Shown here: positions 3,833-39,793 of the stretch, in pieces
Numbering within the stretch: the stretch's first letter is position 1
How the letters are laid out: every line of letters starts with the position of its first letter
Origin: Iocasia fonsfrigidae
GTDB lineage: Bacteria > Bacillota > Halanaerobiia > Halanaerobiales > DTU029
Direction of reading: 5' to 3'
Assembly: GCF_017751145.1 (NCBI RefSeq)
Contig: NZ_CP046640.1
Coordinates: 3,390,137-3,454,136 of the forward strand
DNA length: 64,000 nucleotides
Translations under genes and position numbers: made by a program
Notes under the pieces: model-generated
Database searches by the model: none
Told to the model about the DNA's origin: nothing
The model's input: only the letters and a program-made list of their open reading frames with translations

Positions 3833-4462
3833 ATGATTAAAATATATTTAGTCGACGACCATCCTTTTGTGCTGCAAGGTTTAAAGACTTTTTTAAGTAC
3901 TAACGAAGAGATAGATATAATTGGAGAAGCAAGTAATGGAAAGGATGCCTTAGCAGATATCAAAGAGAAAAACCCCGAGATAGCTATTGTAGATTTACAC
4001 CTTCCTGATATGACAGGAGTTGAGTTGACCAAAAAAATTCTAATGGTTAATCCCAGTGTACAGATAATAATACTCTCTAGCTTCTGTGAAGATGATGAAA
4101 TCATAGCTGCAATCGATGCTGGAGCATTGAGTTATCTAATGAAAGATTCACAACCTCAAAAACTAACAGAAGCAATCTTTGCCGCTAAAAAAAGAGAGCC
4201 TATCTTACACCCTAGAATTGCCAAAAAATTGATGAAACGAGTTACTAAAAAGAAAGCAGTGATAGAACCTCTTACCTCTAGGGAAAAGGATGTTTTATTA
4301 CAACTAAGCAAAGGAAAGTCCAATAAAGCTATTGGCAAAGCCTTATTCATCTCTGATAAGACTGTTAAAACTCATATAAGTAATATACTAAGAAAGCTTG
4401 ATGTAAAAGATAGAACTCAAGCTGCTATCAAAGCAATCGAAGAGAATCTAATCGGCAGGTGA
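3833..4462 (+). CDS. NarL/FixJ-family response regulator
   Basis: A 209-residue response regulator. The receiver domain (1-115) has the acidic pair in LVDDHP, phospho-acceptor D54 in AIVDLHLPD and K104 in YLMKDS. The C-terminal LuxR/GerE HTH (about 144-205) has LTSREKDVL and the recognition segment SDKTVKTHISNIL. AAAGGAGAG precedes the ATG. The partner kinase starts 5 bases downstream. Phosphorylation should promote dimerisation and DNA binding. The best target candidate is the convergent ABC/LolA-like operon (5597-10165), whose upstream region has three copies of ACTAAAAGT; that link is inference. Confidence 0.93.
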   Translation: MIKIYLVDDHPFVLQGLKTFLSTNEEIDIIGEASNGKDALADIKEKNPEIAIVDLHLPDMTGVELTKKILMVNPSVQIIILSSFCEDDEIIAAIDAGALSYLMKDSQPQKLTEAIFAAKKREPILHPRIAKKLMKRVTKKKAVIEPLTSREKDVLLQLSKGKSNKAIGKALFISDKTVKTHISNILRKLDVKDRTQAAIKAIEENLIGR

Positions 4463-4466
4463 TATT

Positions 4467-5501
4467 ATGTACATAGATAATTTTATTAAGATGCTTAAAA
4501 TAGCTAGAAAGTCTAGTTTAATAGGAATTGGAATATCATTAACTTTTATGTTAGCTTTCTACGAATCGCCAATAACTCTTTATACTTTAATAGGTTATAT
4601 AGTCTTTGGAAGTTTAGTAGGTTTTTTTATCTCTCTAACTCTTGGCTTAGTTAACTATATATCATTTTCAAATAAAAATACTCACATATCCCTTCAAATT
4701 ATAATAACCTATATTCTATCTTTTATAATCTTTTATATTATTGCCTTACCTTTCGCTTATATACAAGAATTATCTAAAACAACCTTAGTATATATAGCCT
4801 TAGGTAATGCTGTGGCTTCAGTAATGGTTTGTCTATTCTTTGCTAATATTCATGAAAAGGAAGAGAGAATAAAGCTGGAACAAGAAAATAAAGAACTGGC
4901 TATCATTGAAGAAAGAAATAGAATTGCCCGTGAACTCCACGATTCTGTATCACAGAATCTATTTGGTATCAATCTTAATCTAAACACTTTAAACTACCTA
5001 TTAGAGCATAACCCAGAAAAATCAAAGCATATGATTAAGCAATTACAAGAAATGATTCAAGAGGTTCAAGCAGAAATGAGACTAATGATTTATGAACTAA
5101 AACCTTTAGATTTAAGTAAAAGAGGCTTCTTAGAAACTATAGAAAACTTAATTACCTTATTTAAAAAAAGATATAATTTAGTTATCTCCTTTTCGCTTAT
5201 AGGAAATGAAGATTTTATTGATAATGAAATACAACTTACACTATATAGAATAATACAAGAGGCTTTAAATAATATTGTTAAACATGCTAACGCAAGTAAA
5301 ATTCAAATCTCTTTACAGATACAAGAAGATAATATCCACTTATCTATCCATGATAATGGAGAAGGATTTAACCTAGAAGAGATAGATAAAAATAATAATT
5401 TTGGTATACAAGGTATGGAAGAAAGAATTGCACAGATTAAGGGAAAATTACTAATTGAATCAACAGTTGGAGAAGGAACTACTATTCAAGCTATAATCTA
5501 A
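4467..5501 (+). CDS. Membrane sensor histidine kinase, HisKA_3 (NarX/DesK) type
   Basis: A 344-residue membrane kinase pairing with the response regulator just upstream (4-base gap). Four hydrophobic segments (about 18-31, 39-66, 75-97, 106-127) are joined by very short loops, so sensing probably occurs within or near the membrane, as in DesK-type kinases. A short coiled coil leads into the dimerisation/phospho-acceptor motif EERNRIARELHDSVSQ with H158. The HATPase_c domain follows, with the N box in LYRIIQEALNNIVKHANA and a G box in DNGEGF. There is no separate extracytoplasmic ligand domain. The signal is unknown; envelope or lipid stress would fit the neighbouring operon. Confidence 0.92.
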   Translation: MYIDNFIKMLKIARKSSLIGIGISLTFMLAFYESPITLYTLIGYIVFGSLVGFFISLTLGLVNYISFSNKNTHISLQIIITYILSFIIFYIIALPFAYIQELSKTTLVYIALGNAVASVMVCLFFANIHEKEERIKLEQENKELAIIEERNRIARELHDSVSQNLFGINLNLNTLNYLLEHNPEKSKHMIKQLQEMIQEVQAEMRLMIYELKPLDLSKRGFLETIENLITLFKKRYNLVISFSLIGNEDFIDNEIQLTLYRIIQEALNNIVKHANASKIQISLQIQEDNIHLSIHDNGEGFNLEEIDKNNNFGIQGMEERIAQIKGKLLIESTVGEGTTIQAII

Positions 5502-5596: not shown

Positions 5597-6631
5597 TTAT
5601 AAAAGGTCAATAGAGACCTTAAAATTAATAGTTAAATCTTCAGGTTTACTTCCTATTCTACTACTTTTAGGACCAGAAAAGTGCTCTATCTCTATAGAAT
5701 AAGTTAAATTTTCTATACCAGAATAAGATAAATTGAAAGTTCTAATATCTCCATGGTCATTTAAATCTATTACATCTTTTATCTGCCAGTTCCAATCACT
5801 AAAAAGATCTCCATGGTTTCCTATAACCCAGACTAGATAATCACTCTTTTCACGATAGTATTCTAAAACAATTACTTTATCATTTTTAGTAATATACTCT
5901 CCACCAAAGAGATAGAGATTAGACTTCTCATTTAAAGAGTCCCAATAACGTTTATTATATTCTCCATATACAGCTAAACCATTAAGAAAATCTTTAGAGT
6001 AATTAATTCCTAGGTTAATGCCTTTCTTTTTCTTCTCACTATCTAACCTTTGGTCTGGATCTAAATCACTATTATCCTTAAGATAAGATAAAATTAAGGT
6101 ATAATCACTGGTTTTAAGTAATGAATTATACTTAATCCAAGCAGAGTATAAGTCCTCATAATCACTATCAAAAGTACCGCCTACCTTAAAAGTAGAATTG
6201 AACGTCATCAAGCTAAACTCACTACCTAAATAACTCTCTTCATCATCCAAGGGATATGTAGGATAATACTCACTAAACCCTTTCCCCCAAGTCCAGTACC
6301 CCTTCCCAAACTCTAATATACTATCTCCAACCATTGTATTAATTAAAAATTCATCAAGGTATACAGAATCTTCCTCTGTTTCTCCTTTTACCCTTAAGTC
6401 ATACTGATAAAGACCATATATCCCTGAAGCACTTAACTCCAGGGTAGTATCTACACTACTTTCTGAGTCAAGGATGTATGAATCAGGTAAATTATCATTA
6501 TCAATATGGGAATAATCAAATTCAGTAATTAATTTACTGTCCAGTTCAATAGCCATAGCATTATTAACAAGCCGTAAAATAATAATTATTAAGAAAGTTA
6601 ATATCATTAAGATCTTCTTATAATTAGCCAT
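5597..6631 (-). CDS. Secreted beta-barrel-like outer-membrane protein, last gene of the Lol-like operon
   Basis: A 344-residue protein with an N-terminal signal peptide (about 1-28, cleavage near NAMA-IE). It is otherwise made of alternating polar/hydrophobic strands rich in Tyr, Asp, Ser and Gly, typical of outer-membrane beta-barrels (for example FGKGYWTWGKGFSEYYP). I recognise no enzyme motif. Its place directly downstream (9-base gap) of a LolA-like carrier and an FtsX-type ABC transporter resembles clusters in other diderms where a barrel is the outer-membrane component. It may be the cargo or the outer-membrane station of the system. Topology is inferred from composition; the function is unknown. 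Confidence 0.7.
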   Translation of the reverse strand: MANYKKILMILTFLIIIILRLVNNAMAIELDSKLITEFDYSHIDNDNLPDSYILDSESSVDTTLELSASGIYGLYQYDLRVKGETEEDSVYLDEFLINTMVGDSILEFGKGYWTWGKGFSEYYPTYPLDDEESYLGSEFSLMTFNSTFKVGGTFDSDYEDLYSAWIKYNSLLKTSDYTLILSYLKDNSDLDPDQRLDSEKKKKGINLGINYSKDFLNGLAVYGEYNKRYWDSLNEKSNLYLFGGEYITKNDKVIVLEYYREKSDYLVWVIGNHGDLFSDWNWQIKDVIDLNDHGDIRTFNLSYSGIENLTYSIEIEHFSGPKSSRIGSKPEDLTINFKVSIDLL

Positions 6632-6640
6632 TTTATGCCT

Positions 6641-7444
6641 TTAATCTTTAATGAGTAAATCAAATCTACTCATCATTAGTGGTTGAAAAGCCCTTGGTGA
6701 CAACTCCTTAACCTGTATACCTATATACTTTAACTCTGTAACTCTATCTTGATCTTGTAATAGATTTTTGATAACTATATCAGCAACCTCATGATTTCCT
6801 ATTTTTCTATGATTCTTATAATTTAATTCCTTTAATGGAGTACCACTGACAGCTTTTAATATAACATGTTTAATCCTATTTGTATCCTTGCTGATAGTTA
6901 ATTTCACTTGCTGATAAGTAGTCTTTTCATCTTTGGCAAGCAAATCTATAATATAAGAATCTTCTACTTCATGAAATTCTTTAATATCATAGTCTCTATA
7001 ATAATTAATACCAACTGTTTCTCCTATACCAGCATCCCCAAATATTCTTTGTTGTCCCGAAATTCTAATTGGCCGCCGAAGATTCTTTTTAGACATCCAA
7101 TTATTAGTTCCTATAATTAAGAATTTATTATGAACTAAATCTTCTGGTGCAGTAAAGGTTACCATTTGTCGCTCCCCACCATTATAAATATAAACTCTTA
7201 ATGCTGAACTATTGGTTTCAGTCTCTTCTCCATCATTAATTTTATCCTTATCTTTAACTTTTTCGATTACTGTACAGTCCATTTCAATTAGATAGGAATT
7301 TTCATGTAAATTTTGTTTATCTAAAGCTAACTGTATGATTTCTTTAGAACCAGTAGCATATATTTTACTTGTATTTAATAAAAATATGGATATTATTATA
7401 AGTAATATCATAGACTTTTTATTTATTATCCTCATTAGGAACAC
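6641..7444 (-). CDS. LolA-like outer-membrane lipoprotein-sorting protein (COG2834-type)
   Basis: A 267-residue secreted protein with a signal peptide (about 12-31). The body resembles the LolA-like family PF17131: a beta-rich half-barrel with the segments WMSKKNLRRPIRISGQQ and FGDAGIGETVGINYYRDY, which correspond to the conserved 'W.P...RPIRI' and 'GD' positions of that family as I know it. Such proteins are thought to carry lipid or lipoprotein between membranes. It sits between an ABC permease (67 bases upstream) and the barrel gene (9 bases downstream), so a periplasmic chaperone role is likely. Classic LolA function is not proven for this branch; a lipid ligand is equally possible. Confidence 0.82.
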   Translation of the reverse strand: MFLMRIINKKSMILLIIISIFLLNTSKIYATGSKEIIQLALDKQNLHENSYLIEMDCTVIEKVKDKDKINDGEETETNSSALRVYIYNGGERQMVTFTAPEDLVHNKFLIIGTNNWMSKKNLRRPIRISGQQRIFGDAGIGETVGINYYRDYDIKEFHEVEDSYIIDLLAKDEKTTYQQVKLTISKDTNRIKHVILKAVSGTPLKELNYKNHRKIGNHEVADIVIKNLLQDQDRVTELKYIGIQVKELSPRAFQPLMMSRFDLLIKD

Positions 7445-7511
7445 CCCTCTTTTTAATTAAGGGCAACTATAATCACCCTACTGTAAACAACTTCCTATAA
7501 ATATAAATCTA

Positions 7512-8705
7512 CTAAACATGTCTCAACATCTCTACTACCTTAAGGCGTGCGGCCTTTAGAGCAGGATAAACGGTTGATAGGGTAGTAGCAAGGATTACTA
7601 TTAAAAATGGAGTTATTCCATTTTTTAACGCTAATTTAATATATAAAGGCACCTCTTGAGTATTAGGCGGAGTATAGGTTATATTTAAGCTATTTACAAT
7701 ATTTCCTGCTATCCATCCTAGAGCAATCCCCAGAACACCCCCCATAACTCCAATAATTAATGCCTCTTGAATCAACTGTGTAAATACTTGACTTTGTCTT
7801 GTCCCAATAGCTCTAACTGTACCAATTTCATTCATCCGTTCAAAAAAAGACATCGACATAATCTCTAATATACTAATAAATATTAAGAGAAATATTAACA
7901 TTGATAGAAATAAAAAAGCTGTTTCATACAATCCCCTAACCTGATGATAGAAAGCAGCTAAATCTTCCCAGCTTCTCATTTCAACATCTAAGCCTGCTTC
8001 TTTAAAATCTGATTTTAATTCTACAATAGTACGATCAGTTAATTTAGTATCAGTCAATAAAACTTTAAATTTGTCTACTCCCTCAGTATTTAGTAGAATT
8101 TGGGCAAAACTAAGGGGCATCATAATATAATGGCTATCTGCATCATCATTTCCTATAGAGAAGGAACCACTTAACTGTAAACTACCTGCATTATAGGCAC
8201 CATCAATAGTTGTAGCCATTATCGAAACCCATTCATCCTCTTCAATATTCAATATCTTTTTTATCCCCTGCCCTACAATTACTCTGTCTTGATCACCTGG
8301 GAATAAGGAAGTTCCACTTTTAATAGATATATTCTGTTTATAATCGGTTTCTACCCCCATGGCTGAAACAATAGTACTTCTTTTTTCTGTTCCTAAGATT
8401 CCAGAGACCTGCAAAGTTCTAGTATAATCTGTCACATGCTCTTTATTGTTAAGTATCTCATTAATCTTAGCAATATCATCCTTACTTAAAACCTTCCTAT
8501 CCACACTTTTCTTATCCCAAAAGCCTTCTTTAGCAATTTGTAAGTTACTATATTCTCTAATAGCCATCATCTGTAACCCCTCAAATGTTGAAGTAAAGTA
8601 TCCTTTTAATAGGAATAAAACTGCTATACTGACAATTATTAAGCCTAAACTTAAAAGTGAACGCCTCTTATTTCTCATAATACTTCGCCAGGCTATTTTG
8701 AACAT
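7512..8705 (-). CDS. ABC transporter permease, FtsX/MacB/LolC-E type
   Basis: A 397-residue type VII ABC permease. One transmembrane helix near the N terminus (about 17-38, after the MRNKRRSLLSLGL motif) is followed by a large extracytoplasmic MacB_PCD-like domain (about 40-245), then three C-terminal helices (about 260-285, 312-338, 362-385) with EIGTVRAIGTRQSQVF between the first two. Such permeases use ATP hydrolysis to pull lipoproteins or other envelope substrates out of the inner membrane (mechanotransmission) rather than moving them through a channel. Its start is one base after the stop of the ATPase gene. The neighbouring LolA-like protein supports a LolCDE-like job. Confidence 0.9.
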   Translation of the reverse strand: MFKIAWRSIMRNKRRSLLSLGLIIVSIAVLFLLKGYFTSTFEGLQMMAIREYSNLQIAKEGFWDKKSVDRKVLSKDDIAKINEILNNKEHVTDYTRTLQVSGILGTEKRSTIVSAMGVETDYKQNISIKSGTSLFPGDQDRVIVGQGIKKILNIEEDEWVSIMATTIDGAYNAGSLQLSGSFSIGNDDADSHYIMMPLSFAQILLNTEGVDKFKVLLTDTKLTDRTIVELKSDFKEAGLDVEMRSWEDLAAFYHQVRGLYETAFLFLSMLIFLLIFISILEIMSMSFFERMNEIGTVRAIGTRQSQVFTQLIQEALIIGVMGGVLGIALGWIAGNIVNSLNITYTPPNTQEVPLYIKLALKNGITPFLIVILATTLSTVYPALKAARLKVVEMLRHV

Positions 8706-8706
8706 A

Positions 8707-9390
8707 CTAACTGACCTCCTTTACACTTAGAGTACCATCTTTAATTTCTATTAACTTTTGGGCATATCTATTGATAAATAAATCATGGGTCACAATAACA
8801 AAGGCTACGTCATATTCATTATTTAAATTTAGCATTAACTCTATAATAGTCTTCCCTGTTTCAGAATCTAGATTTCCTGTTGGCTCATCTGCTAAAACCA
8901 CTTCAGGCTCGGTAACTAGAGCCCGTGCAATAGCTACTCTCTGTTTTTGACCACCAGATAGCTGGCCAGGTAATCTATTATTCATCTTATCCAAAGCAAG
9001 CTCTTTTAAAATCTTATCAACTCTCTTCTTTCTTTCTGACTTACTGACTTTCTGTAAGAGAAGGGGATATTCTACATTCTCCCATACTGTTAAAACTGGA
9101 ACCAATTCAAAGTATTGAAATACCAAACCAATTTTATCTCTACGAAGCTCTGTCCGTTCTCTATCACTTAAAGAATTTAAAGAAGTTTTATTAATCTCAA
9201 TCTCCCCTGAGCTTGCTTCATCAATACCAGCCAACAAATTTAGGAGGGTAGATTTTCCACTACCAGAAGGACCATTTACTACAATAAAGTCACCTTTGTT
9301 AATTGTAAGATTTATATTCTTTAAGGCTTGAACTTCTTCAATCTGGCTAGAATATATCTTGCTTAAATTTTCTATTTTAATAATAGCCAC
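8707..9390 (-). CDS. ABC transporter ATPase, LolD/MacB type
   Basis: A 227-residue ATPase subunit with Walker A GPSGSGKST, Q loop, signature LSGGQKQRVAIARAL, Walker B VVLADEPTGNLDS with the LolD/MacB-typical 'EPTGNLDS', and the switch histidine in IVTHD. It pairs with the permease downstream in a tightly packed operon (13 bases after the TPR gene, 1 base before the permease). It would energise release of an envelope substrate to the LolA-like carrier. Confidence 0.93.
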   Translation of the reverse strand: MAIIKIENLSKIYSSQIEEVQALKNINLTINKGDFIVVNGPSGSGKSTLLNLLAGIDEASSGEIEINKTSLNSLSDRERTELRRDKIGLVFQYFELVPVLTVWENVEYPLLLQKVSKSERKKRVDKILKELALDKMNNRLPGQLSGGQKQRVAIARALVTEPEVVLADEPTGNLDSETGKTIIELMLNLNNEYDVAFVIVTHDLFINRYAQKLIEIKDGTLSVKEVS

Positions 9391-9403
9391 TTCTTACTCC
9401 CCC

Positions 9404-10165
9404 TTAAATTTCTTTAGCTTCTTTTAAAATATCCTCTGCCCATTTATTAGCTGGATAAATTTTCAGAGCTTGTTTTGCACTATCTATCGCTTGGTCTTTA
9501 TCTTTTAATTTTATATAAGCATTGGCTATCCAAATATAAGAAATAAAGTTATCGAATTTATCTTTACTATCTAAGGCCTTTTGAAACATTGTAATTCCTT
9601 TATCTATATCACCGCCACCAATTTTAGGTGCATTTATATAGTATATTCCTAATGAATTAAAAGCCGTATAATTTTCTTTATCAAGCTTCACAGCTTTCTG
9701 TAATAATTTAACTGCTTTTGGACCACTAGTCATCAAATAAATTACGCCTTTATATTCCATCAATCTCATATAAGTATCAGCTAATAAACGATGAGCTTCA
9801 CTTAATTTTTTATTCTTTTTTATACTTTTTAGAGCTAGTTCACTACTATTCTCAAAATGTCGAGCAGCCTTTCTTGGTTCTCCCTTAACCTCATACATTT
9901 CAGCTATTAAAAATTCAACTTGACCTTGCCACAAATACTTTTGATCATCATTATTTACCTTTTCAAGATAAAAATTACTTTGCCCAGCTGTTTCAATTAG
10001 TTTTTCAATATCATTATCACCATTATAGTAATCTTCTCTAGCCTGAAAGAACAGATCTTTTCCTTGCTCTAAGTTATTATCCTTCGCCTCCATATTTAAA
10101 GAAATGACTATTGTAAGAAACATAATTAGAACTAAAATAAATTTGTAATTTTTTAATTTTATCAT
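9404..10165 (-). CDS. Secreted tetratricopeptide-repeat protein
   Basis: A 253-residue protein with a signal peptide (about 8-28) followed by degenerate TPR repeats across about 65-250. The stretch SLGIYYINAPKIGGGDIDKGI is reminiscent of TatT-like secreted TPR proteins known near transporters in spirochaetes and other diderms; this resemblance is from memory. It is the first gene of the five-gene operon and probably acts as a periplasmic scaffold or adaptor. The start has GGGGGAT about 8 bases upstream. No catalytic motif is seen. Confidence 0.75.
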   Translation of the reverse strand: MIKLKNYKFILVLIMFLTIVISLNMEAKDNNLEQGKDLFFQAREDYYNGDNDIEKLIETAGQSNFYLEKVNNDDQKYLWQGQVEFLIAEMYEVKGEPRKAARHFENSSELALKSIKKNKKLSEAHRLLADTYMRLMEYKGVIYLMTSGPKAVKLLQKAVKLDKENYTAFNSLGIYYINAPKIGGGDIDKGITMFQKALDSKDKFDNFISYIWIANAYIKLKDKDQAIDSAKQALKIYPANKWAEDILKEAKEI

Positions 10166-10227
10166 TTTTATCCCCCTAAAATTATTTGTTAACTATATTA
10201 TATAAGTTACCTAAGTCCTATACATCT
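10166..10227 (-). promoter_or_regulatory. Putative promoter of the TPR-ABC-LolA-barrel operon
   Basis: A TATAAT on the minus strand (plus positions about 10197-10202) lies about 30 bases before the TPR gene start. No recognisable -35 hexamer stands 17 bases upstream, which is typical of activator-dependent promoters. Three ACTAAAAGT words lie immediately upstream. Confidence 0.5.
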
Positions 10228-10360
10228 ACTAAAAGTTCTGTTTCTATTAGACTAAAAGTAGTAAGAAATCTCCTGCTTTTGGGGGATAAATTAGTCTGTC
10301 AACAGATTAATCATCCACGAAGAGTTATCTATAACCCGTAGAGACACTAGACTAAAAGTA
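10228..10360. repeat. Three ACTAAAAGT direct repeats, candidate response-regulator sites
   Basis: The word ACTAAAAGT occurs at 10228-10236, 10251-10259 and 10351-10359. The last two extend to the identical 13-mer TAGACTAAAAGTA and are exactly 100 bases apart; the first two are 23 bases (about two helical turns) apart. They sit upstream of the weak promoter of the Lol-like operon, where a NarL-type regulator would bind. The rest of 10166-10432 holds no gene. Confidence 0.5.
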
Positions 10361-12337: not shown

Positions 12338-13114
12338 TTATAAATACTTACTGATAATAATCTCAATGGCCTTTTTATATTCCAAGCTAAGTTGCCCGGA
12401 TAATTCTCTTCTTAATACATTTAACAGCGCTCCAGCTGCTTCTGGAATAGGCTTAAGTAAAATAGATTCCATTTCTTTTCCTAAATCTGAATAAACAAAT
12501 TCAAACCTCCTTAAGGGATCGATATTATCAAGTAAATTATTATTTTAATTAACTAAATGTTTTCCCAATAAAATCAATAATTTTTTCAATGCTGATATCT
12601 TTACAAACTCATGGGCACTAACTTTTTCTCCTCTTTTATACCTACCAAGACCAACCAATAAATTAACAATGAACTGACCTATTAGTACCTCATTACTGCA
12701 ATTTAAATTTGACTCTTCGGCCGTTGTTTGTCTGATTTTTCTCAGATGATCCTCTATATTTTCTCTATCAATTAATATTTGATAACAATTTGTTTTAGAA
12801 AAATACAATTCTTTACTATCAAAAACTGCAAATTCAATTAAATGCCCACTATTATATAATACTTTTAAGCCGTGTTCAGTTTCTTGAAAAGATAATAATA
12901 TACTATCAAAATTTGGCAACCATGATAAATCATTACGAAACTCTTGTTGGTGACCAGTTTGTACAATCACAAAGAAATCATGATCAGACCACTTGTCTGG
13001 TCTATAATTCTGCCTGGACATAGAACCAACGGCAACTAATCCAATAACTCCAATACAATTTAATAAATTATTTTTTAAATTCTCAGTATACCTTTCATAC
13101 TCAATACAATTCAT
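12338..13114 (-). pseudogene. Nucleotidyltransferase gene with an in-frame TAA stop
   Basis: A nucleotidyltransferase-fold protein. The core motif GSMSRQ...WSDHDFFVIV (residues about 30-51) gives the GS pair and the metal-binding DxD-type acid. The open frame stops at TAA 12545-12547 after 189 residues. However, the same frame continues without another stop to 12338, encoding LDNIDPLRRFEFVY and IPEAAGALLNVLRREL, which look like the usual C-terminal helices of this family. So the original gene was about 258 residues and has suffered a nonsense mutation (or a sequencing error). The substrate is unknown; relatives modify aminoglycosides or other small molecules. It has its own ribosome binding site (AAGGAGA). 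Whether the 189-residue product is active is open. Confidence 0.7.
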
Positions 13115-15807: not shown

Positions 15808-18528
15808 TTAGAATACTGTTTCAAGTTCGGCCTTATAATAGTCTTCTCCTTCATCTTCATCTTGTTTATTATATGAAAGTGAAAAAGTACTCCTTTTATT
15901 AATCTCCTTAGTCAATTTAATTAAAATTGCATCATCTTCATATTCAGAGATTTCACCATGATTAAAATCATATTTAATACATAAATCAGCTCGTATACTG
16001 TAAGGAAATTTATAATATGTTTCTAGAGTTAAAATAGAATACCAATCTATAAAACGTTGTTTGTCAGCTACATAGTATTGTTCATCTTTAGTAATATCAG
16101 ATGGAGTATAATCTATTACATTATCTTCAATTTGTTGAAATTCCAGACCTGTAGTAAGTCCACCCCACATTGGTAATTTAGGATTTCTAAATTCTGTTTC
16201 TAAATACACTTTCTGTTTCCAATCATTATCATTATCATCCTGATCTTCATAGTCTGCATTCTCTACTAGACCATCAGCTCCATTATCATCAACTGTATAA
16301 TTAAGCAAAATATATGGGATATAATCCTCACTATCTCCCAAATGGTGTAATTTTGTTTCCAAACCATATTTTATTGCTTTATCATCTTCATATCCGCTTA
16401 CAGGGTCTTTAACATAACGGACATTAGGTTTGACATAAGCAATTTTATCTGTATGTAGATCCAAATCACTCTCTAAATAGTATTCTTCAACTTCTGAATC
16501 CAATCTGTTGTGTATATTTCCCCTCAAATATTTTAGGTATGGAATGTTACTAGTCTGTGTCTCAAAACAAGCCTCCTTCTTTTCCCCTTCAAAATCATCT
16601 GTATCTTTTGGATCAACTTCAATACTACCTGTAATATAATCTAGACCCTTAACTGGTTTATTCCATTCTAAACCTGTGGCCACTTTCCTACTCAAGGCAT
16701 CCCCTTCTTCTATGTCTTCACCATCATCTACAACTTTATCATCTGAAGCAACTTTGTATTCTAATTCTCCATTAAGTACTAAATTATTTAAAAGATTATA
16801 TTTTCCTTTGGCATATGCAGTCCGGTAACCAACATCTGCATCTTCCATAACATCATCATCTGCTACTGGCAGATAAGCATTTTGAGACATGGTCCTGGCC
16901 CCAACCGTAAAATCACCTTTGTATTTAGTCAAACTAAAATCTCCTGATTTAATACGGGCCTTCATACTGGCTTTTTTATCAACAATTTTATAATTAGCTT
17001 CTAGTAAAGCTGAATCACCTCTGTCATAAATAAAATCCCCTGCTGTCGCATAAACACAGGCAGTATTCACTTTAATATTCTCGCCGTTTGTTTCATAACT
17101 AGCTGTAATTTCATGATAATCATTCCAGTTATCAGTATCCCACATTATTTTAAACTCCTGGCCTTCTTTCAAATTAGTAAACTCACCTTCCCAGATACCA
17201 GGTGCAACTTTCTCCAGAGCAAAAGACTTATCAGATGGTGTCCAGGCTGGGTCCTGCATGCTCCCTACTAGATGCATCTCTTTTACTTCACCAATTACCG
17301 GTATGGGTTTATTTTCAGCACCTTCAGCAGGTTCTAATCGACTTATATTTACTCTAATCTTCCAAGCTGAACCTTCTTCCATCACCTTAGTAGTTAAAGC
17401 AGTGTATTGAGCCTTTAATGTCAAATTGTCAATTGGTTTAGCCTCAATAAAAACCGCCTCTGTGTCTGTTAGTTTTCCATCAACATCTTGTGTATACTGC
17501 AAATGAGAACCTATTTTCACTTCTTTCCCATTTAAATTAAAATCTTTACCAATATTTGCATATCCATGGTAAAGCCCATAACTTTCCTCATCCTGTAAAT
17601 ACTCTGTAGTATTATCAAGATATTCTGTCATGGCAAAATTAAAATCTACCGGCAGACTTTCCTTGCTTTCCATTTTAAATCTACGGGTATAGTTACCGTT
17701 TTTTAATAAATCATTGGGATTAGTTGTCCCATTTTCTCTACCCTCACTATCAGTAATCGCATCAACTAATCCTAATGGGTCCATTGAATTAGTAAGGTCT
17801 TTGGTATTGATGCCAATTGTATAATCAACAGGATCAGTTAGTAATGTTACTTTAGTATTCCATAACTCAATTGTATCAGGTGTAAAGATCTCCATCTCAT
17901 CTATTTTTGTTATATCATCTGCATCCCATTCTATATTTACCTGACCACTATATTTTACTCGATCAACTTTTTCAGCATTATCTCCTTCACCAAGTTTATC
18001 CTGTATTGTTCCTTTTATATTTAATTCAAAGTCATTATCTATTTTTATAGGGTCATGTTCGTCATCAGTATTATTATATTCAACTTTGTTAACTACCTTA
18101 CCAGTTAGGCTAAACTCCCCTTTCATTTTACCAGAACTTATTCTCACTACAGAGTTTTGTCCCCCCTGCCCATCATCAACAAACGTATCTGCCTCATTAT
18201 CCTTCATCCAGTTCTTATCACTATCAACAAATTTATAGGGATATGTACCCTTTTTTAAAATTTTAGTAATTGTCCAAGCTCCATCTACTATTGTCATCTG
18301 CCAATCAGGGTGAGAACCATCCCAATTATTGGCTGTGCCCTCTATTACTTTATCTTCAGGAAAATCACCAGCTAGATACATCTCGCTTACATCCAATTTA
18401 GCTTGATAAATAAACGTTACTTTGTAATTCCCATCATCCAATTCCTCTACTATAGTTTTGGCATAAACAGAACCACTCACCATAATTAAAGTTAATAATA
18501 GGAAAACACAAATTTTCTTTTTCATCAT
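15808..18528 (-). CDS. Large secreted protein: two glucan-binding E-set domains in an outer-membrane barrel-like body
   Basis: A 906-residue protein with a clear signal peptide (1-23, cleavage after VYA). Residues about 34-131 form a CBM48/AMPK-type glycogen-binding E-set: MYLAGDFP, WQMTIVDGAWTI, GTYPYKFVDSDKNW, DDGQGGQNSVV. A second E-set lies at about 414-503: EMHLVGSMQDPAW, FKIMWDTDNWNDYHEI. The rest is a long series of amphipathic beta strands with acidic loops, ending in ELETVF. A C-terminal phenylalanine is the usual signal for outer-membrane barrel assembly. It lies among amylase and maltodextrin import genes and behind a LacI-type operator. I infer a surface starch-binding porin that combines the jobs Bacteroidetes split between SusC and SusD/E. 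Barrel topology is inference from composition. Confidence 0.75.
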   Translation of the reverse strand: MMKKKICVFLLLTLIMVSGSVYAKTIVEELDDGNYKVTFIYQAKLDVSEMYLAGDFPEDKVIEGTANNWDGSHPDWQMTIVDGAWTITKILKKGTYPYKFVDSDKNWMKDNEADTFVDDGQGGQNSVVRISSGKMKGEFSLTGKVVNKVEYNNTDDEHDPIKIDNDFELNIKGTIQDKLGEGDNAEKVDRVKYSGQVNIEWDADDITKIDEMEIFTPDTIELWNTKVTLLTDPVDYTIGINTKDLTNSMDPLGLVDAITDSEGRENGTTNPNDLLKNGNYTRRFKMESKESLPVDFNFAMTEYLDNTTEYLQDEESYGLYHGYANIGKDFNLNGKEVKIGSHLQYTQDVDGKLTDTEAVFIEAKPIDNLTLKAQYTALTTKVMEEGSAWKIRVNISRLEPAEGAENKPIPVIGEVKEMHLVGSMQDPAWTPSDKSFALEKVAPGIWEGEFTNLKEGQEFKIMWDTDNWNDYHEITASYETNGENIKVNTACVYATAGDFIYDRGDSALLEANYKIVDKKASMKARIKSGDFSLTKYKGDFTVGARTMSQNAYLPVADDDVMEDADVGYRTAYAKGKYNLLNNLVLNGELEYKVASDDKVVDDGEDIEEGDALSRKVATGLEWNKPVKGLDYITGSIEVDPKDTDDFEGEKKEACFETQTSNIPYLKYLRGNIHNRLDSEVEEYYLESDLDLHTDKIAYVKPNVRYVKDPVSGYEDDKAIKYGLETKLHHLGDSEDYIPYILLNYTVDDNGADGLVENADYEDQDDNDNDWKQKVYLETEFRNPKLPMWGGLTTGLEFQQIEDNVIDYTPSDITKDEQYYVADKQRFIDWYSILTLETYYKFPYSIRADLCIKYDFNHGEISEYEDDAILIKLTKEINKRSTFSLSYNKQDEDEGEDYYKAELETVF

Positions 18529-38135: not shown

Positions 38136-38211
38136 TGGAGCGGGAAACGGGATTCGAACCCGCGACCTTCTCGTTGGCAACGAGATGCTCTACCAGCTGA
38201 GCTATTCCCGC
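38136..38211 (-). tRNA. tRNA-Gly(GCC)
   Basis: 76-base cloverleaf with encoded CCA; anticodon loop TTGCCAA gives GCC. Last gene of the rRNA-tRNA operon. Confidence 0.96.
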
Positions 38212-38214
38212 ATC

Positions 38215-38299
38215 TGGTGGAGGGGGAAGGATTTGAACCTTCGTAGGCATCGCCGGCAGATTTACAGTCTGCTCCCTTTAGCCACTCGGGCACCCCTCC
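38215..38299 (-). tRNA. tRNA-Tyr(GTA)
   Basis: 85-base class II tRNA with long variable arm and encoded CCA; anticodon loop CTGTAAA gives GTA. Confidence 0.96.
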
Positions 38300-38305
38300 G
38301 CTTTT

Positions 38306-38464
38306 TAGAAGTAGGATGTAGGATATCAGAGGTAGGATTGAATGCAAATTTGGTTTGCACTTATAAAACCAACTAACAACCTGTGAATCCTAATTAATAT
38401 TATAAATACCATTAAAAACACTAAATTCAAGTCTCTTGCTTCTGACTTCTTACCTCTTACATCC
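38306..38464. repeat. Intergenic repeat element between tRNA genes, copy 1
   Basis: Ends are related inverted arms of the type GAAGTAAGAGGTnnGAAGTCAGAAG. It contains a 39-bp block (38325-38363) that recurs with one change at 38739-38777, with a TGCAAATTTGGTTTGCA palindrome inside. No gene in it. Confidence 0.65.
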
Positions 38465-38468
38465 GTTG

Positions 38469-38545
<77 letters not shown>

Positions 38546-38553
38546 TATTACAC

Positions 38554-38629
<76 letters not shown>

Positions 38630-38637
38630 AAAAAAAA

Positions 38638-38714
38638 TGGCGAAGGCGATGGGATTTGAACCCACGATCTCCGGCGTGACAGGCCGGCGCGATAAACCAC
38701 TACGCTACGCCTCC
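38638..38714 (-). tRNA. tRNA-Asp(GTC)
   Basis: 77-base cloverleaf, encoded CCA, anticodon loop CTGTCAC gives GTC. Confidence 0.95.
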
Positions 38715-38716
38715 GT

Positions 38717-38839
38717 ATTTAGATGTCAGAAGTATGACATCAGAGGTAGGATTGAATGCAAATTTAGTTTGCACTTACTCAAAAGCATAATTCATCATCA
38801 AGTCTTATGAATTCTTACTTCTGACCTCTTACTTCTTTT
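38717..38839. repeat. Intergenic repeat element between tRNA genes, copy 2
   Basis: Same family as 38306-38464: shared 39-bp block at 38739-38777 and a right arm TTCTTACTTCTGACCTCTTA. Confidence 0.65.
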
Positions 38840-38840
38840 A

Positions 38841-38916
38841 TGGTGGGCGAAACAGGGCTCGAACCTGTGACCCCCTGCTTGTAAGGCAGGTGCTCTCCCA
38901 ACTGAGCTATTCGCCC
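38841..38916 (-). tRNA. tRNA-Val(TAC)
   Basis: 76-base cloverleaf, encoded CCA, anticodon loop CTTACAA gives TAC. Confidence 0.95.
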
Positions 38917-38920
38917 AAAA

Positions 38921-38996
38921 TGGCACCCTCAAGGGGATTCGAACCCCTGCCGCCAGGATGAAAACCTGGTGTCCTGGACCCCTAGACGATGAGGGC
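38921..38996 (-). tRNA. tRNA-Glu(TTC)
   Basis: 76-base cloverleaf, encoded CCA, anticodon loop TTTTCAT gives TTC. Confidence 0.95.
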
Positions 38997-38999
38997 ATA

Positions 39000-39093
39000 T
39001 GGCGGAGAGGGAGGGATTCGAACCCTCGCTAGGGTGTTAAACCCTACTACAGGTTTAGCAAACCCGCCCCTTCAGCCACTTGGGTACCTCTCC
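39000..39093 (-). tRNA. tRNA-Ser(GCT)
   Basis: 94-base class II tRNA with a long variable arm and encoded CCA; anticodon loop TTGCTAA gives GCT. Confidence 0.94.
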
Positions 39094-39171
39094 GGTTTAG
39101 ATGTTGAAGGTAGGATATCAGAAGTAAGAAAATAATACTTACTTCCGACTTCTTACCTCATACCTCTTAAT
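39094..39171. repeat. Short intergenic repeat element, copy 3
   Basis: A compact member of the family: GTAGGATATCAGAAGTAAGA on the left and an inverted-type arm CTTACTTCCGACTTCTTACC on the right with a very short centre. Confidence 0.5.
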
Positions 39172-39248
39172 TGGTGGGTCTAAGTGGATTTGAACCACTG
39201 ACACTGCGGGTATGAACCGCATGCTCTAGCCAGCTGAGCTATAGACCC
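39172..39248 (-). tRNA. tRNA-Met(CAT), elongator
   Basis: 77-base cloverleaf with G1-C72 pair and encoded CCA; anticodon loop TTCATAC gives CAT. Distinct from the initiator at 39554. A CAT tRNA modified to read AUA (tRNA-Ile2) is a less likely alternative. Confidence 0.85.
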
Positions 39249-39256
39249 ATGTATAA

Positions 39257-39333
39257 TGGAGCGGGAGACGGGATTCGAACCCGCGGCCCTCAGCTTGGAA
39301 GGCTGATGCTCTAGCCAGCTGAGCTACTCCCGC
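39257..39333 (-). tRNA. tRNA-Gly(TCC)
   Basis: 77-base cloverleaf, encoded CCA, anticodon loop CTTCCAA gives TCC. Confidence 0.95.
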
Positions 39334-39399
39334 AAGAAAACATATCGAAATTTTATATTAATTATACATGCAACTGAATAATAAATCAAGTGTGAGAAA

Positions 39400-39552
39400 T
39401 TGGTAGCACCACAGGCACTCCGTATTTAAACAAAGCATACAAGAATATAATTGGTTGCACCACAGGCACTCCGTATCTAACTAAAATCATATAAGAAAAA
39501 TTTGGTTGTACCACAGGTGCTCCGTATTTAAACAAAGCATACAAGAATATAA
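39400..39552 (-). repeat. Three 51-bp tandem repeats abutting the 3' end of tRNA-fMet
   Basis: Units start at 39400, 39451 and 39502, exactly 51 bases apart, and a fourth unit begins at 39553 inside the tRNA 3' end. On the transcribed strand each unit ends in a copy of the tRNA terminus (GCAACCA, with variants ACAACCA and GCTACCA) after a small hairpin around GGAGTGCC-TGT-GGTGC. Copies 1 and 3 share most of their sequence; copy 2 differs in its AT-rich half. There are no spacers, so it is not a CRISPR. Confidence 0.85.
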
Positions 39553-39553
39553 T

Positions 39554-39630
39554 TGGTTGCGGGGGCCGGATTTGAACCGACGGCCTCCAGGTTATGAGCC
39601 TGACGAGCTACCAGACTGCTCTACCCCGCG
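39554..39630 (-). tRNA. Initiator tRNA-fMet(CAT)
   Basis: 77-base tRNA with the initiator hallmarks: unpaired C1, GGG pairs at the base of the anticodon stem largely kept, loop CTCATAA giving CAT, and 3' end GCAACCA. The 51-bp tandem array begins directly after its CCA. Confidence 0.95.
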
Positions 39631-39634
39631 TCAT

Positions 39635-39710
39635 TGGTGAGCCATGGAGGAATCGAACCTCCGACACCCTGATTAAAAGTCAGGTGCTCTACCGACTGAG
39701 CTAATGGCCC
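39635..39710 (-). tRNA. tRNA-Lys(TTT)
   Basis: 76-base cloverleaf, encoded CCA, anticodon loop CTTTTAA gives TTT. Confidence 0.95.
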
Positions 39711-39718
39711 ACATATTG

Positions 39719-39793
39719 TGGCTAGGGCGGCAGGATTTGAACCTGCGAATCATGGGACCAAAACCCATTGCCTTACCACTTGGCTACGCCCTA
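39719..39793 (-). tRNA. tRNA-Gln(TTG)
   Basis: 75-base cloverleaf starting TAGGGCG with encoded CCA; anticodon loop TTTTGGT gives TTG. First tRNA after the 5S gene. Confidence 0.94.

Follow-up and report, generated by a model that had tools for sequence, protein, structure and literature searches.

An operon pairing a LolA-like shuttle with a predicted outer-membrane barrel in Iocasia fonsfrigidae, a candidate exporter of lipid-like compounds

Five genes of Iocasia fonsfrigidae lie in one tight operon (10165 to 5597, minus strand) within a 64,000-nucleotide stretch of contig NZ_CP046640.1 (positions 3,390,137 to 3,454,136; the window). They encode a secreted tetratricopeptide repeat (TPR) protein, an ATP-binding cassette (ABC) ATPase, an FtsX-type permease, a LolA-like periplasmic protein and a barrel-like protein, and their likeness to the Lol machinery raises the question of what they carry and in which direction. 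The original prediction, made from the sequence alone, proposed an inner-to-outer-membrane route for lipoproteins or lipids, or an export route reserved for the barrel protein. We find that the LolA-like shuttle and the barrel are the constant unit of a wider cassette in which the pump is the variable part. The window operon is probably an envelope-stress-induced, ATP-driven exporter whose cargo, a lipid or something lipid-like, is moved from the inner membrane to the outer one.

Genes of the operon and their predicted folds

The five genes and their families were confirmed, all on the minus strand, and the gaps between them, calculated from the coordinates, are 13, 1, 67 and 9 bp. The first gene (9404..10165) encodes a secreted TPR protein of 253 residues with a signal peptide and a PF07719 match of 48.7 bits; no lipobox was seen in it. 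Against the TRAP transporter T-component family (TAtT, PF16811) it scores 29.7 bits (cut-off 26.5), and its orthologue at locus L058 scores 16.9 bits, under the cut-off (L and G numbers are locus and genome labels). A PDB profile search with this protein returned for the most part general TPR proteins, designed ones included, and no TatT. The next two genes encode the engine, a LolD/MacB-type ATPase of 227 residues (8707..9390; ABC_tran 133.7 bits, Walker A GPSGSGKS, LSGGQ) and an FtsX-type permease of 397 residues (7512..8705; PF02687 60.7 bits). The permease is of the type VII ABC class, with an FtsX-like C-terminal domain and, by a crude hydropathy measure, segments at 17-35 and from 262 on, in agreement with the four membrane segments and the large loop behind the first one that mark this class. 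As it is encoded by a single gene, we presume it to be a homodimer. Both subunits fall under the cut-offs of the Lol models, the ATPase with 246.6 bits against LolD TIGR02211 (cut-off 307.75) and the permease with 80.5 bits against lolCE TIGR02212 (cut-off 362.45).

The LolA-like shuttle (6641..7444, 267 residues as listed) matches PF17131 with 68.5 bits (cut-off 30). The more likely start lies three codons further in than the listed GTG, at an ATG at about 7435 with AGAGGGGTG upstream of it. We built AlphaFold2 (AF2) models on the window protein together with relatives found by a genome scan with a permease alignment. The shuttle model (pLDDT 85.6) has the LolA fold, which along with the score over the gathering cut-off places the protein in PF17131 LolA_like. 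The structures nearest to it are NE2245 (3buu, Z 23.4), 3bk5 (Z 20.1), the DUF1329 protein 4z48 (Z 18.9) and LolA3 (9tp6, Z 18.6), at least 5 Z units above any lipoprotein LolA (P. aeruginosa LolA 13.3; E. coli LolA 1ua8 11.6). The structure comparison that had been suggested for this gene supports the predicted fold, with nearest structures other than lipoprotein LolA.

The last gene (5597..6631) encodes a 344-residue protein with a Sec signal peptide and no Pfam or NCBIfam match, so none to DUF1302 (PF06980) either. Its AF2 model shows 18 strands after the signal peptide and is of fair quality (pLDDT 73.6, pTM 0.64). It resembles 18-strand porins, namely the BenF-like porin 3jty (Z 22.1, 3.1 Å over 287 residues) and the Occ porins (Z about 22), followed by AlgE (Z 21.2) and Wzi (Z 20.6); Foldseek alone put 16-strand general porins first. 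The suspected barrel character, against which any other predicted fold would have counted, is supported by a predicted porin-like barrel, and we assign the protein to the outer membrane by this model and by profile homology to other barrels. Fold likeness alone proves no function.

A constant shuttle and barrel with a variable pump

Among the 38 genomes of the window genome's order (hereafter the order), PF17131 gave 96 matches in 37 genomes, eight of them in the window genome itself. The first 60 loci were picked for spread and the remaining 36 then added, so that all 96 were inspected; the first 60 served to build the barrel profiles, leaving the other 36 as an independent set. A secreted protein matching a barrel profile lies no more than three genes away on the same strand in 83 of the 96 loci, and directly downstream in 80. 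The independent set gave such a match in 30 of 36 loci, and two of the six misses are 31 and 492 bp from a contig end. The pumps at these loci are of different kinds: RND/MMPL pumps of the MMPL/HAE3 type at 50 loci, an ABC ATPase with two FtsX permeases at 33, an ABC ATPase with one FtsX permease at 3, and none visible at 10, seven of which are at a contig end. One RND-cassette pump, as an example, scores 177.5 bits as MMPL/HAE3, and one RND-cassette barrel matches DUF1302 with 31.8 bits (cut-off 23.2). A LolA-like gene found mostly with RND pumps had been named beforehand as evidence against a Lol-like route, and this is the distribution observed, with 50 of 96 loci carrying RND/MMPL, 36 an FtsX-type ABC and 10 no pump.

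Profile comparisons connect the cassettes across their engines. The shuttles are homologous across pump types with 98.7-100% probability. For the barrels the comparison of RND cassettes with cassettes of the two-permease ABC type (ABC2) gave 99.8%, and that of the window type with RND cassettes 97.1% over 283 columns; unrelated controls reached at most 22%. The LolA tree (70 rows, of which 4 labelled "other" were omitted from the counts and the long rows L059 and L090 were flagged) requires one change between ABC and RND. Free swapping of pumps was rejected on this ground: the engine therefore changed rarely and long ago, and shuttle and barrel stayed paired. The window operon would be the single-permease ABC variant of this wider cassette, whose engine is either an ABC transporter or an MMPL/HAE3-type RND pump.

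Close relatives of the window variant are few. At L058 in genome G031, regulator, kinase, TPR protein, ATPase, FtsX permease, LolA-like protein and barrel follow each other in this order on one strand, and the permease is 57% identical to that of the window. Of the 10 loci found in the permease-alignment scan, six have the same system, with permeases 52-57% identical (UBA5388, AS06, AS08, UBA8346, UBA11021 and Halonatronum saccharophilum). With the window included, the core of ATPase, permease, LolA-like protein and barrel is present at 8 of 8 window-type loci, the TPR protein at 7 of 8 (not in UBA8346) and an adjacent regulator and kinase at 6 of 8. Orthologues of the TPR protein, 39-44% identical, come first in the transporter unit at L058, L135, L136, L137, L139 and L140, and in the tree the LolA proteins of the eight window-type loci group together with full SH-aLRT support. 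This recurrence of the core set in seven other genomes or contigs indicates that the grouping is more than chance. In G007 the regulator, kinase and ATPase are kept, the permease is in two pieces and only a fragment of the barrel is left; the system is therefore decaying there.

A search of the order with the LolA-like protein gave a strong match (E < 1e-50) only in the window genome and G031, the six other matches (E 2.8e-7 to 6e-4) being cassette paralogues. A general lipoprotein route of the order was rejected as an account of the operon on this basis. Conservation across Halanaerobiales, proposed as a check on the operon, thus holds for the wider cassette and fails for the window variant.

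The relatives carry several further genes. H. saccharophilum has a 545-residue FMN reductase and SCP2 sterol-transfer gene between the permease and the LolA-like gene (L140:8272-9909, plus strand). Downstream of the G031 operon lies a 904-residue fusion of an alpha/beta hydrolase (PF12146) with an Omp85 barrel (PF01103, 36.8 bits; L058:2234-4948, minus strand). Both genes are consistent with a lipid cargo and do not prove it. A second secreted barrel-like gene stands directly after the barrel at L058:5088-6041, L135:10002-10921, L137:10333-11361 and L140:11763-12674. These genes encode mutually homologous proteins (E 1e-30 to 1e-54) of 303-342 residues, the L135 copy ending at the contig end; the three tested have no Pfam match, and the gene is present in one of the 38 genomes of the order. 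It is possibly an eighth component in these relatives, and was not accepted as part of the window system because the window genome has no match to it. The window genome (G000) also holds two near-identical LolA-like/barrel copies with an equal PF17131 score of 206.4 bits (among L053, L054 and L055), and in the third cassette of this set the upstream pump region reads as two open reading frames of 304 and 450 residues. This indicates a duplication and possibly pump decay.

The distribution beyond the order was assessed in 299 evenly sampled genomes of the phylum, in which relatives are not independent, with a best E of 3.7e-13 or lower taken as a strong PF17131 match. Strong matches occur in 56 of the 299 genomes (60 over the family cut-off), and 55 of these 56 also have Omp85; PF17131 therefore tracks the outer membrane in the phylum, with the reservation that relatives are not independent. 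Omp85 without a strong match was found in 21 genomes, among them all seven Omp85 genomes of family f39; 20 genomes with weaker PF17131 matches, five of them with Omp85, were set aside. PF17131 also matched in 6 of 14 control genomes, including three archaea, organisms without a bacterial outer membrane. The LolA-like fold is therefore not limited to diderms, and LolA-like proteins may serve other lipid carriers in archaea.

Two-component system, promoter element and other window features

The operon is convergent with a NarL/LuxR-type response regulator (3833..4462, plus strand; PF00072 Response_reg, PF00196 GerE) and a HisKA_3 histidine kinase (4467..5501, plus strand; PF07730, PF02518 HATPase). 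The original prediction had included this pair, which at 3833-5501 lies just beyond the span of 5597-10165 that it quoted. By hydropathy the kinase has about four N-terminal transmembrane helices and no large extracytoplasmic domain. The Walker A motif, LSGGQ and the RELHDS box are all intact. We take the pair to be like the LiaRS/VraSR-type envelope-stress systems, which presumably share with it a HisKA_3 kinase, a short membrane sensor, a NarL-type regulator and what appears to be an autoregulated promoter. It differs from them in that the kinase scores far below the LiaS equivalog cut-off (112 bits, cut-off 450), and that no LiaF was seen.

A candidate promoter and operator lies 5' of the transporter genes (10197..10277, minus strand). 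It consists of an inverted repeat AGCAGGAG-N5-TTACTACT (10257-10277), 30 bp, GATG (10223-10226), 20 bp and TATAAT (10197-10202). The element common to the loci reads AGTAGGAG-N5-7-CTCCTACT, 29-30 bp, GATG, 20 bp, TATAAT, and precedes the transporter genes, or the regulator if that is the first gene. Of 14 upstream regions from window-type loci, 10 have its promoter part, GATG-N20-TA[TC]AAT, compared with a mean of 0.02 and a maximum of 2 of 14 in order-1 Markov shuffles. The inverted repeat is present in 8 of the 14 and absent from both strands of 2.4 Mb of other fetched loci. The spacing from repeat to GATG is 29-30 in all seven regions carrying both; for the gap test, gaps of 26-32 were searched for the best arms in 12 regions, one of which (upstream of the L137 regulator) is without a proper repeat. 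Among the copies with a repeat, that of the window is the most degenerate, with 13 of 16 consensus bases. A blind scan of the 38 genomes found the repeat at nine places in 7 genomes, two of them with the promoter part, and the full element occurred only before an orthologous regulator-kinase pair (L189, G001) and the decayed operon of G007 (L197). Judged from the sequence, the conserved promoter appears to join kinase and transporter genes in one control, and the regulator would bind at the repeat. The promoter would offer a handle for switching on one version of the cassette and seeking its cargo.

Two other operator candidates and a regulon scan were set aside. The inverted repeat alone as operator was dropped since seven of the nine places lack the promoter part, so that an ordinary terminator is also possible. 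The sequence ACTTTTAGTCTA has 11 window matches at two or fewer mismatches, compared with 13 expected, and the repeat/GATG element was preferred to it. Scanning the window's own genome for a regulon with AGTAGATG-N20-TATAAT gave 16 places at one or no mismatch against 10 for the reversed control, which is uninformative beyond the operon.

Elsewhere in the window, a 906-residue secreted protein ending in phenylalanine (15808-18528, minus strand) has a weak glycogen-binding-like domain (PF16561, 23.6 bits, cut-off 26.8) and adjoins genes that, by reading only, resemble starch and glycogen enzymes. A 189-residue nucleotidyltransferase-like protein (12545-13114, minus strand) matches PF04439 streptomycin adenylyltransferase with 23.3 bits (cut-off 22). 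An array of 13 tRNA genes occupies 38136-39793 (minus strand).

Candidate functions and known systems

In the lipid exporter that we regard as the probable function, the type VII ABC would, to judge from its families, extract a lipid-like cargo from the inner membrane. The LolA-like protein would take this cargo in its groove through the periplasm; the 18-strand barrel would then receive or release it at the outer membrane, with the secreted TPR protein as a putative adaptor or scaffold. The kinase, embedded in the membrane by its four or so helices and with no large outside domain, may sense membrane disturbance, and the regulator would then switch on the promoter common to kinase and transporter genes.

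Several observations weigh against this proposal. Outer-membrane barrels typically end in phenylalanine, as do 48 of the 50 cassette barrels counted; the window barrel ends in ..FKVSIDLL and is one of the two without it, the other being that of L058. The window-type barrel compares with the ABC2-cassette barrels at 87% over 43 columns only. The LolA lineages largely track the engine, ABC and RND being separated by a single change on the tree. The inverted repeat resembles a terminator hairpin, with RNA-fold z-scores of -4.6 and -5.3 in two relatives (+0.6, thus no hairpin, in the window). Genome G006 (locus L059) has an ABC ATPase, one FtsX permease and a LolA-like protein with no homologous TPR protein or barrel-profile match, and the substrate is a class deduced from the families. 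L059 was itself rejected as a locus of the same variant: its first gene, of 245 residues, has no Pfam match and gave no match to the TPR protein of the window, and the LolA-like protein of this locus sits on a long branch of the tree.

The operon could instead be a true Lol system of the LolDF type, in which lipoproteins extracted by a homodimeric permease and LolD are handed to the LolA-like protein as carrier, and the place of LolB is taken by the barrel or the TPR protein. The best named matches of ATPase and permease are indeed LolD-like and LolCE-like, the shuttle has the LolA fold, and a passage of PMC11784454 describes a LolF homodimer, to which the one-gene permease is similar. Passages of PMC5007114 propose a Lol system for Halanaerobiales, with LolA homologues beside LolC/E and LolD, and report Lnt; PMC11784454 repeats this as a probable horizontal gain. 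Against this, all Lol models score below or far below their cut-offs, and canonical LolA (PF03548) is over its cut-off in none of the 38 genomes of the order, with 7 sub-threshold matches at E of 1 or lower. The LolA-like family adjoins RND pumps more often than ABC transporters, its nearest structures are those of NE2245, 3bk5, DUF1329 and LolA3 and not a lipoprotein LolA, the operon has no lipoprotein gene, and a variant at 8 loci only is too rare for a housekeeping route. As reported in passages of PMC13103446 and PMC11885536, LolA3 binds LolB little and has lost the conserved arginine, and its deletion was without effect on gliding or type IX secretion, leaving lipoprotein-dependent traits intact. 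We therefore consider a Lol system unlikely at this locus. Of the predicted lipoprotein or lipid route, the lipoprotein half is unsupported, and the best reading is what remains, the lipid half.

This bears on the published claim. The LolA-LolC/E-LolD cluster reported for Halanaerobiales very probably corresponds to the 33 cassettes of an ABC ATPase, two FtsX permeases and PF17131, and the gene family has probably been taken for a lipoprotein-sorting pathway by mistake. The statement that the route of diderm Firmicutes is not settled was fair, although a Lol system for Halanaerobiales was already in print in PMC5007114 and PMC11784454. As far as their passages go, these two papers credit Lol to Halanaerobiales as the sole such Terrabacteria, and a passage of PMC10665443 has Lol absent from Terrabacteria; the counts given here suggest that pump-shuttle-barrel exporters stand behind the claim. 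We tentatively raise a wider possibility, which we do not regard as established: diderm Firmicutes may have no Lol pathway at all, and the Halanaerobiales "Lol" may be a family of exporters in which LolA-like shuttle and outer-membrane barrel are constant and the engine is either ABC or MMPL/HAE3 RND. With up to 8 copies per genome, this family would supply the outer membrane with lipids or other lipophiles, and the copy in the window would be an inducible one controlled by membrane stress. If the exporter reading is true, the published "Lol system" needs re-testing. Dating the origin of outer-membrane lipoproteins depends in part on whether diderm Firmicutes deliver lipoproteins to that membrane.

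An efflux or detoxification pump for envelope-active xenobiotics, such as membrane antibiotics or solvents, induced via a LiaRS-like sensor, would account for the small-sensor HisKA_3 kinase (LiaS model 112 bits, cut-off 450), and sporadic distribution with decay in G007 fits a conditional trait. It also has a precedent in AmeABCD, which provides efflux of toxic monoterpenes according to a passage of PMC6394551. We nevertheless find it improbable, as the operon encodes neither a MacA/HlyD-type adaptor nor TolC, a soluble shuttle of the LolA kind is suited to lipid-like molecules taken one at a time, and the SCP2 gene in one operon and the hydrolase-Omp85 gene after another point to lipids. Uptake or a retrograde route, with the barrel admitting a lipophile and the LolA-like protein carrying it inward, draws on the structural matches of the barrel, among which uptake porins with specific substrates (OccK, BenF-like) rank best; the exporter AlgE, at Z 21.2, is level with these porins, and in passages of PMC12646458 and PMC6394551 the characterized type VII ABC systems extract or export and HAE3 pumps act outward, which makes this direction very unlikely. 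An export line dedicated to the barrel, as originally suggested, would explain its strict adjacency to the shuttle (immediately downstream in 80 of 96 loci) and is hardly credible, given that the barrel has its own Sec signal peptide, that the genome has Omp85/BamA and that a LolA groove fits acyl chains and not an unfolded polypeptide.

The lipid exporter that we favor can be set beside several known systems. With LolDF-LolA (PMC11784454, in the passages describing it) it shares one LolD-like ATPase, one LolCE-like permease and a LolA fold; it differs in having no canonical LolA (PF03548), an operon-borne barrel and no lipoprotein link. From the reported Halanaerobiales "Lol" cluster the window variant differs by its single permease, TPR protein and two-component system, and the passages of PMC5007114 and PMC11784454 that report the cluster leave adjacent barrels and RND-driven copies unmentioned. 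LolA3 of Porphyromonas and Flavobacterium (passages of PMC13103446 and PMC11885536) is among the nearest structures, with an identity to the window shuttle of about 15%; those passages describe no pump for it. YbbAP-TesA, a type VII ABC system proposed in a passage of PMC12646458 to extract hydrophobic compounds from the inner membrane, would likewise pass a hydrophobic molecule to a periplasmic partner; that partner is a hydrolase, and the system as described there has no barrel. A passage of PMC6304351 describes an MMPL/LolA-like protein beside a predicted porin, induced on a long-chain alkane.

The best-studied relative, on the passages of PMC6394551 that describe it, is the Ame-type exporter of hydrophobic compounds. 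AmeABCD of Castellaniella defragrans comprises an HAE3-RND pump, a DUF1329 protein of the LolA superfamily and a DUF1302 outer-membrane protein, and its deletion lowers monoterpene tolerance. As in that system, the window has an inner-membrane pump, a LolA-superfamily periplasmic protein and an adjacent homologous outer-membrane barrel in one cassette; the RND cassettes of the order come closer still, with their HAE3/MMPL pump and DUF1302-scoring barrel, and the window shuttle is itself similar to DUF1329 (4z48). It differs in its engine, an FtsX-type ABC instead of an HAE3-RND pump, in having PF17131 for DUF1329 and a TPR protein for AmeC, and in its own two-component system. In the literature searched we found no description of an ABC-driven PF17131-barrel cassette. 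We propose that two unrelated inner-membrane engines serve one fixed pair, a LolA-fold shuttle and its outer-membrane barrel. This kind of cassette is already known, and what appears to be new here is its ABC-driven variant, a pump, LolA-fold shuttle and outer-membrane barrel with their own two-component control.

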